A stretch of 32,923 nucleotides of DNA from Chloroflexota bacterium (GTDB lineage Bacteria > Chloroflexota > Limnocylindria > Limnocylindrales > CSP1-4): assembly GCA_003169655.1 (NCBI GenBank), contig PNAZ01000125.1, positions 12,878 to 45,800 of the forward strand. The letters run 5' to 3'. Shown here one piece after another: positions 13,674 to 15,960 of this stretch. The notes beneath the pieces were generated by a model. That model worked only from the letters and a program-made list of their open reading frames with translations. It was not told where the DNA came from and did not search any database. Each line of letters begins with the position of its first letter. Position 1 is the first letter of the stretch. Made by a program: the position numbers and the translations under genes.

Positions 13674-14534
13674 CTAGCCACGGGTCGGACTGTCCGTGGA
13701 GACTTGGGTGTTCGCGGCACTCGGTCGGCCGGCCGCGACCAATTGGACCTCGATCTGCCGGGCGCGGAGGGCATCGACCATCTCGGGCGGAGCCCCGCCG
13801 TCCGAGATCACCCCCGTGATGGACTCGAGCTGGCAGAACGTCGCGAAGGCGGCCCGGCCCCACTTGGTGTGGTCGACGATCGCGATCACCTCGCGGGCGG
13901 CCTGGACCATCGAGCGCTTGATCTGGGCCTCTTCCTCAGTCGCGTCACTCAGCCCGGATTCGAGGGCGAGGCCGGCCGCGCCCACGAACGCCGTCTGGAC
14001 ATTGATCCGGCTGAAGACGCCGTCGCCGAGCGGCCCGACCAGCGACAGCGCCTCCCAGCGCAGCCAGCCGCCCAGCATCAGGACCCGGATCCCAGGAAAG
14101 CCGGCGAGCTCCGATGCGACCCGCAGCCCGTTGGTGATCACGGTCAGGCTCGTCCAGCCGCCGTGGATCTTGAGCTGGCGGGCAGCCGCCAGGGCCGTGG
14201 TGCTGGCGTCGAAGACGATGCTCTCGCGGTCATGGACGCGCTCGGCGACGGCAGCCCCGATCAGGGCCTTCTCGTCGGCCTGGAGCCGTTCGCGAATCTC
14301 GAAGGCCAGCTCCGGGCGGTTGGCGACGGGCGAGATGGCCCCTCCGTGCGTTCGCACCAGGCGGCCCTCCGCCTCGAGGGCCAGCAGGTCCTTCCGAATC
14401 GTGACCCCGGAGACGCCAAAGTGGGTCGCTAGGTCGGTCACCCAGACCCGGCCGTGCTCCTCGACGACCCGGGCGATGTACTGCTGGCGCTCCCGGGCGA
14501 AGACGCCCGTGAGCACACTGCCCGATTCCCTCAA
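13674..14534 (-). CDS. DeoR/GlpR-family transcriptional regulator (start TTG 14534 or GTG 14516)
   Basis: ERQQYIARVVEEHGRVWVTDLATHFGVSGVTIRKDLLALEAEGRLVRTHGGAI; DeoR sensor domain follows. Confidence 0.93.
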   Translation of the reverse strand: MRESGSVLTGVFARERQQYIARVVEEHGRVWVTDLATHFGVSGVTIRKDLLALEAEGRLVRTHGGAISPVANRPELAFEIRERLQADEKALIGAAVAERVHDRESIVFDASTTALAAARQLKIHGGWTSLTVITNGLRVASELAGFPGIRVLMLGGWLRWEALSLVGPLGDGVFSRINVQTAFVGAAGLALESGLSDATEEEAQIKRSMVQAAREVIAIVDHTKWGRAAFATFCQLESITGVISDGGAPPEMVDALRARQIEVQLVAAGRPSAANTQVSTDSPTRG

Positions 14535-14592: not shown

Positions 14593-14621
14593 ACGTTAGA
14601 TGGCCGATCAGTTACTGTCAA
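14593..14621 (-). promoter_or_regulatory. Putative sigma70-like promoter for the DeoR operon: TTGACA (14621-14616) - 17 bp - TAACGT (14598-14593)
   Basis: Consensus -35, exact 17-bp spacer, weak -10. Confidence 0.5.
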
Positions 14622-14687
14622 CAAACGATTTGGAAACCAATTGAATCTATTCGGAAGTTGTGGCAGGCTCGACGGGCGCACGACCCC

Positions 14688-14737
14688 GGGATCGCTCGCC
14701 ACCTCCTCCGGCGAGCGATCCCTGCGCCATCGGCGCA
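14688..14737 (+). ncRNA. Structured rhaI leader: perfect 13-bp hairpin (GGGATCGCTCGCC-ACCTCCTCC-GGCGAGCGATCCC) abutting a 6-bp hairpin (TGCGCC-ATC-GGCGCA)
   Basis: Direct inspection of 14688-14722 and 14723-14737; 57 nt between structure and GTG 14794. Confidence 0.55.
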
Positions 14738-14793
14738 TCAGGCAGGGGGCCGTTCCTGTACGGTCGTCAGGCAGCAGGGCTGGGAGGAATCAC

Positions 14794-15960
14794 GTGAGCG
14801 ACCAGGCAGGGGTTGAGTCCGAACTGAAGGGCCAGCGCATCGAACTGCCCTCTTGGGCGTTTGGCAACTCGGGCACCCGGTTCAAGGTGTTTGCCCAGCA
14901 GGGTGTGCCCCGCGACCCGTACGAGAAGATCGCCGACGCCGCCCAGGTCCAGCGTTTCACTCGCGTTGCGCCGACGGTCGCCCTGCACATCCCCTGGGAC
15001 AAGGTCGACGACTATCGGGACCTGGCCCGGCATGCCGCGGAACAGGGCGTCGCCCTCGGGACGATCAACTCGAACACGTTCCAGGACGACGACTACATGC
15101 TCGGCAGCGTCTGCCACCCTGACGCCGGGATCCGGGCCAAGGCCGTCGCTCACCTGCTCGAGTGCATCGACATCATGGATGCGACCGGGTCGCGCGACCT
15201 GAAGCTGTGGTTCGCCGACGGCACGAACTACCCCGGCCAGGACGATATTCGCGGCCGCCAGGATCGCCTGGCCGAAGCCCTCGCCAAGGTCTATGCCCGG
15301 CTGGGGCCGAACCAGCGGATCGTGCTCGAATACAAGTTCTTCGAACCGTCGTTCTACACGACCGACGTCCCCGACTGGGGCACCGCGTTCGCCCATTGCC
15401 TGGCGCTGGGCGAGAAGGCCAAGGTCGTGGTCGACACCGGCCACCACGCCCCCGGCGTGAACATCGAGTTCATCGTCGCCGGCCTCCTCCGCGCAGGCAA
15501 GCTTGGCGGCTTCGACTTCAACTCGCGCTTCTACGCCGACGACGACCTGATGGTCGGGGCGGCCGACCCGTTCCAGCTCTTCCGGATCATGTTCGAGGTG
15601 GTCAAGGTCGACGCACACCGGCCGGAATCCAACGTGTCGTTCATGCTCGACCAGTGCCATAACATCGAGCCCAAGATCCCAGGCCAGATCCGGTCGGTGA
15701 TGAACGTCCAGGAGGCCACGGCCAAGGCGCTCCTCGTCGATCGCGACGCGCTGGGGGCGGCCCAGCGCGTCGGCGACGTGCTCGGCTCGAACGCGGTCCT
15801 GATGGACGCCTACAACACCGACGTGCGTCCGCTCCTGGCCGACGTCCGGCGCGACCTGGGCCTCGACCCCGATCCAATGGCGGCCTACGCCCGGTCGGGC
15901 TATCGCGAGGCGATCGTGAAGGAGCGGGTCGGCGGCCGGCAGGCTGGCTGGGGCGCATGA
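14794..15960 (+). CDS. rhaI: L-rhamnose isomerase, Pseudomonas RhaI-type TIM barrel
   Basis: ELPSWAFGNSGTRFKVFAQQGVPRDPYEKIADAAQVQRFT, LWFADGTNYPGQD, LEYKFFEPSFYTTDVPDWG, VDTGHHAPGVNIEFIVA, GFDFNSRFYADDDLMVGAADPFQLF. GTG start with GGGAGGA RBS. Confidence 0.92.
   Translation: MSDQAGVESELKGQRIELPSWAFGNSGTRFKVFAQQGVPRDPYEKIADAAQVQRFTRVAPTVALHIPWDKVDDYRDLARHAAEQGVALGTINSNTFQDDDYMLGSVCHPDAGIRAKAVAHLLECIDIMDATGSRDLKLWFADGTNYPGQDDIRGRQDRLAEALAKVYARLGPNQRIVLEYKFFEPSFYTTDVPDWGTAFAHCLALGEKAKVVVDTGHHAPGVNIEFIVAGLLRAGKLGGFDFNSRFYADDDLMVGAADPFQLFRIMFEVVKVDAHRPESNVSFMLDQCHNIEPKIPGQIRSVMNVQEATAKALLVDRDALGAAQRVGDVLGSNAVLMDAYNTDVRPLLADVRRDLGLDPDPMAAYARSGYREAIVKERVGGRQAGWGA

Follow-up and report, generated by a model that had tools for sequence, protein, structure and literature searches.

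Leaders of mRNAs in which the Shine-Dalgarno (SD) sequence is masked by a loop or a pseudoknot occur among translational riboswitches and plasmid rep leaders. The kind closest to the element described here is formed by the cuckoo, or alpha-r14, small RNAs (NfeR1; SmelA075, SmelA099), which present CCUCCUCCC loops on hairpins with highly different stems (PMC10746234, PMC3927594). These are trans-encoded sRNAs of alphaproteobacteria, whereas the present hairpin belongs to a sugar-operon 5′ leader in Chloroflexota. At the transcriptional level, RhaR/DeoR operators of rhamnose regulons are described as two imperfect direct repeats with a period of 10–11 bp (PMC3870299).

The window, which is the whole stretch of 32,923 nucleotides analysed here, corresponds to C141:12878-45800 of a 3.34-Mb assembly with a completeness of about 81%. 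It contains an ordinary L-rhamnose locus. The L-rhamnose isomerase gene rhaI occupies 14794–15960 on the plus strand, starts with GTG and is the first gene of its operon (TIGR02635, 630 bits against a cut-off of 531). Downstream of it are genes for a rhamnulose-phosphate aldolase/dehydrogenase, a rhamnulokinase and lactate oxidation (TIGR02632 and TIGR02627 matches). A DeoR-family repressor gene, probably rhaR, diverges from rhaI on the minus strand (13674–14534; Pfam DeoRC, 5.9e-45; HTH_DeoR, 4.4e-16), and a RhaS-like ABC transporter set follows it. The hairpin leader of rhaI sits in the divergent deoR-rhaI intergenic region, for which a length of 260 bp was used in the chance estimate below.

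An initial annotation of this DNA had described two abutting hairpins followed by the rhaI SD sequence GGGAGGA and the GTG at 14794, and all of them were found at the same positions when the sequence was re-read. The first hairpin, P2, is a perfect 13-bp stem-loop, GGGATCGCTCGCC-ACCTCCTCC-GGCGAGCGATCCC, at 14688–14722 on the plus strand, and its stem covaries over four genera. Its loop, ACCUCCUCC (14701–14709), is anti-SD-like, and the CUCCUCC within it is conserved in five hairpins from these genera. The second hairpin, P3, reads TGCGCC-ATC-GGCGCA (6 bp; 14723–14737), and the SD sequence lies at 14782–14788. P2 is the longest perfect short-loop hairpin of the window. First-order Markov simulation gave an expectation of about 0.07 perfect short-loop stems of at least 13 bp per window, and this amounts to about 5e-4 per 260-bp intergenic region; P2 is unlikely to have arisen by chance. 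The element is single-copy in the assembly even when three mismatches are allowed. The sequence CTCCTCCGG occurs at 95 sites in the genome, and a comparable hairpin is absent among the first 30 of them. The initial annotation had recognised no known riboswitch class, and the Rfam search agrees with it, returning no match at gathering scores. At a relaxed E-value only chance-level matches appeared, and no curated covariance model fits the leader.

A block running from TGTCAA to ATTGAAAnCAAtCGnAAnnnTGTGGCAnnCTG is conserved in the alignment of 12 orthologous regions, including that of L161 from another family. It contains a predicted minus-strand deoR promoter, direct repeats of 10–11 bp and a predicted plus-strand rhaI promoter. 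The predicted deoR promoter, TTGACA-N17-TAACGT, is at 14593–14621 on the minus strand; it was unlisted by a simple consensus scan, and the form TTGACA-N17/18-TAnnnT can be read in the orthologs. The predicted rhaI promoter, TTGAAT-N17-CAGGCT, is at 14641–14669 on the plus strand and is assigned from its conservation and spacing, the orthologs having TTGAAA-N17-CAnnCT. Its −10 element is weak, and the consensus promoter scan found no promoter in the region. The conserved block places the predicted rhaI start near 14676. P2 is downstream of this position and would begin about 12 nt after it. The leader proposal had been made to depend on the start not lying downstream of 14737, and the predicted start agrees with this. 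Because the hairpin is downstream of the conserved promoter block, it is probably transcribed with rhaI. The predicted deoR promoter is to the left of the hairpin, which would place the hairpin outside this deoR transcript.

The direct repeats, GATTTGGAAACC AATTGAATCT ATTCGGAAG at 14627–14657, have the ortholog consensus ATTGAAAnCAAtCGnAA and form the probable RhaR/DeoR operator. They are kept in 12 species, among which one belongs to a different family, and have the repeat form given in PMC3870299. The initial annotation had offered the 35-bp P2 element as an alternative, spaced operator for the DeoR protein, and its place between a deoR-type gene and the probable target operon would suit such a role. 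However, P2 is an inverted repeat, its arm sequences are unconserved between orthologs, and the operator-type direct repeats are found upstream of it and also in a relative without the hairpin. An operator function of P2 is therefore extremely improbable.

Folding of the leader RNA at 14676–14781 predicted a four-way junction. In the minimum free energy and centroid folds, the closing stem P1 pairs a 5′ arm at 14676–14685 (core ACGACC, 14680–14685) with a 3′ arm at 14762–14772 (core GGTCGT, 14762–14767). P2, P3 and a third hairpin, P4 (14742–14759; 7 bp with a 4-nt loop), complete the junction, all on the plus strand. This segment is more stable than its shuffles (z = −3.37, 1/200). The wider segment 14640–14810, for which the initial annotation had suggested folding, turned out to be unremarkable (z = −1.06). 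The P2 loop of the window has an unpaired probability of 1.00 in the predicted fold, and the complementarity between loop and SD noted earlier was computed as 6 bp, UCCUCC with GGAGGA. The energy of this duplex is −11.5 kcal/mol, against −10.2 for the pairing of 16S rRNA with the SD in the same calculation, from which pseudoknot penalties are excluded. In the folding model, the loop is thus available for pairing and matches the SD of its own message, as a loop-SD pseudoknot in cis would need. The four leaders that bear the motif all fold better than shuffles (z from −2.2 to −4.0). In L005 and L006, too, the loop hairpin lies within another stem or stacks on one. The distance from loop to SD ranges from about 60 to 180 nt among leaders, a point against pairing in cis.

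Relatives were sought within the family (107 genomes), the class (177) and the phylum (400). With the window's own gene counted, this gave 13 full-length rhaI genes of at least about 80% identity, and a divergent deoR is present at 12 of the 13. CTCCTCC-loop hairpins are found in the window (genus g1), L005 (g26), L006 (g27) and L007 (g21), the last of which has two. The leaders of L004 and L121 (g3) hold only a CCTCC remnant, which is mostly paired. CTCCTCC is absent from the leaders of L122, L123, L124 and L126 (g3) and of L125 (g14), and the leader of L161 is about 45 nt long and has no hairpin. The leader of L126 is identical to that of L041. The element is dispensable, since several orthologous leaders do without it. 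The initial annotation had made its case dependent on conservation or covariation in close relatives. The outcome favours it: covarying CTCCTCC-loop stems occur in three other genera. The element is not universal, and seven other leaders have no such element or only the CCTCC remnant. In the rhaI tree, with modest support at most forks, L005–L007 cluster with L161, and the rhaI of the window clusters with g3. By this grouping, either the element is ancient and has been lost repeatedly, or it was gained more than once.

In the g3 leaders (L004, L121–L124 and L126), the flanks GGCTACCA... and GTCCGCCAGGTAGACAGGGATGGAG are kept and the hairpin between them is almost wholly replaced in each species, as if it were a cassette with fast turnover. 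A DNA search with the intergenic region in 100 relatives returned short matches alone and no orthologous leader. Actinobacterial rhaI genes (Streptomyces and others, 75–81% identical) have different upstream regions, and none of those inspected by eye showed a leader hairpin with a CTCCTCC loop. A second rhaI lineage of the same family (L008–L017, about 60% identical) has no leader of this type and no deoR intergenic region; in several genomes it lies directly 3′ of a kinase-like gene. The rhaI matches of L014 (G004:C48) and L130 (G101:C81), genus g2, each contain one in-frame TGA.

The stems of the five hairpins were aligned over 9 bp, in a register set by hand by removing variable loop bases. 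In this alignment 86.7% of the cells pair, against 57.3% in shuffles. Both sides are altered in 8 of the 9 stem pairs by compensatory changes, and the CTCCTCC of the loop is invariant. Because the register had been set by hand, the test was repeated with every site free to take whichever of four loop offsets paired best. With the same register freedom, the five leader hairpins pair more than 340 control CTCCTCC sites, and their sum was reached in none of 200000 draws; when the window's copy was left out, the value against the same sites was about 1e-4. Five copies of CTCCTCC are observed in 1186 nt of leaders, where 0.07–0.32 are expected, according to the background used. Since the four genomes are related by descent, all of these numbers overstate independence. 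The pairing between loop and SD cannot show as covariation, since the SD is near-constant. A by-eye count tying a leader CCTCC to a GGAGG SD (5 of 6 against 2 of 6) was too weak to use.

Several other explanations were weighed. The first is that the hairpin has no function: it would be an inverted repeat that is transient or arose by chance where the intergenic DNA is GC-rich, and the shared CTCCTCC would reflect common descent or coincidence. The orthologs without the element agree with this, as do equally perfect CTCCTCC-loop stems within coding genes of other genomes (L179, L188). The low chance expectation at the locus and the compensatory changes throughout the stem argue otherwise, and we regard the absence of function as rather unlikely. 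The second is that P2 is a generic hairpin that stabilises the 5′ end of the mRNA or shields it from RNases, so that any strong 5′ stem suffices and the loop sequence is incidental. The short distance from the predicted start to P2 would fit such a role, and the g3 leaders hold different hairpins with unrelated loops between their conserved flanks. It leaves unexplained, however, why five CTCCTCC loops occur in four genera, and the leaders without CTCCTCC, except that of L121, mostly fold no better than shuffles. This explanation, too, is rather unlikely.

The balance of G.U and A.C mismatches in the stems leaves the strand undecided. On the minus strand the loop reads GGAGGAGG, and it could serve there as an SD for a short ORF, or as a CsrA-type site, upstream of deoR. 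In L004, L006 and L121 an ATG follows the GGAGG after 9 nt, in L007 a GTG does so at the same distance, and in L005 an ATG follows after 12 nt. In L004, L005, L006 and L121 the GGAGG and ATG give short ORFs on the minus strand, which extend into the promoter region; the window has no such ORF. Against a minus-strand role, the window's copy has no start codon at a usable spacing, the hairpin is not situated between the predicted deoR promoter and deoR, and within the part that the orthologs share the frame is disrupted by one-base indels. CsrA was not found in the window's own assembly, which is about 81% complete. A minus-strand role is thus very improbable.

A further possibility is action in trans, in which a small RNA set free from the leader would block the SDs of other mRNAs with its CUCCUCC loop. 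The kept anti-SD loop, the diverged stems and the tandem pair in L007 do follow the alpha-r14/cuckoo pattern (PMC10746234, PMC3927594). However, no intrinsic terminator or attenuator (a GC-rich stem with a U-tract) was found between the hairpin and rhaI, the leader continues without a break into the rhaI SD, and the genome has no second copy of the element. Action in trans is accordingly held to be quite improbable.

The covariance model R1 of the leader hairpin was run over the 107 family genomes. It returned the known leaders together with other matches of similar score. Those with strong stems whose frames were read lie inside MerR-like ('KYERAGLLRPAR') and thiamine-dependent enzyme genes, and the remaining matches mostly overlap long open frames. 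From their position, the matches elsewhere look mostly like coding coincidences, and no evidence for a dispersed family was found with R1 in the 107 genomes. One intergenic ACCTCCTCC-loop hairpin follows a Dps-like gene on the minus strand of L176 (G105:C130, about 1440–1560). It is enclosed by a long outer inverted repeat, GAAACACGGGCGTCGAAGTC / GACTTCGACCCGTGTTTC, whose 3′ arm overlaps a possible SD and the GTG of a lipoprotein-like ORF. The structure may simply be a terminator.

The best reading, which we put forward tentatively, is a cis-acting leader whose anti-SD loop damps rhaI translation. The case is based on five hairpins in four genomes. A loop that is conserved while its stem diverges and yet stays paired, at a position in the mRNA leader, points to a function of the loop in RNA. 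Since four genera retain the loop on stems of altered sequence, it probably helps to set the amount of enzyme. The simplest partner for the loop may be the SD of the same message, an assignment which we also make with reserve. The 5′ leader of the rhaI operon mRNA would expose an unpaired CUCCUCC loop at the tip of a strong hairpin, and this loop would pair reversibly with the rhaI SD in competition with the 16S anti-SD. Such pairing in the cell would lower or buffer translation of the operon, as a layer beneath transcriptional control by a DeoR-type RhaR at the upstream direct repeats. No ligand or trigger forms part of the proposal. Of the initial reading, the probable co-transcription of the hairpin with rhaI, the recurrence of CTCCTCC loops on covarying stems and the freedom of the loop to form 6 bp with the SD are retained, and the DeoR operator is dropped. 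We conclude that the leader element is real, probably functional and narrow in distribution, with the mechanism as a working proposal.

More speculatively, the leader could represent an undescribed class in Chloroflexota of cis-acting sugar-operon leaders, in which a fast-evolving hairpin keeps the CUCCUCC anti-SD loop alone and tunes translation of its own operon. It would be the 5′ UTR counterpart of the cuckoo sRNAs, although we consider this class doubtful at present. If it is true, a design known from trans-acting sRNAs of alphaproteobacteria, in which the anti-SD loop is conserved and the stem changes freely, has also arisen among mRNA leaders of a distant phylum. Chloroflexota, a phylum with little studied RNA regulation, would gain such an element, and a translational layer would be added below the DeoR-type control of rhamnose use.

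Among the known systems, translational riboswitches and other SD-masking leaders share with this one a structured leader containing an element complementary to its own SD. Unlike translational riboswitches, the leader has no conserved aptamer core, and Rfam returned no match for it. The locus resembles the L-rhamnose regulons with a DeoR-type RhaR in Chloroflexales (PMC3870299) in its probable control by direct repeats and in the bifunctional aldolase-dehydrogenase of its operon. The Chloroflexus isomerase is named RhaA there, whereas that of the window is of the RhaI type, and a leader hairpin is not among the features found in the passages of that paper considered here. With the cuckoo RNAs the leader shares an unpaired anti-SD loop of the CCUCCUCC type and diverging stem sequences. 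Cuckoo RNAs may carry several loop-bearing hairpins, whereas the leaders of the window, L005 and L006 have one and only that of L007 has two. A cuckoo RNA is an independent transcript; the present hairpin, judged from the sequence, is flanked by the conserved promoter block on one side and the rhaI SD on the other, with no terminator found. On these two points, the number of hairpins and the independence of the transcript, the leader falls outside the cuckoo RNAs. As to the letters of the loop, ACCUCCUCC followed by G in the window agrees with the cuckoo loop CCUCCUCCC in 8 of 9, and the core common to the five hairpins is CUCCUCC.
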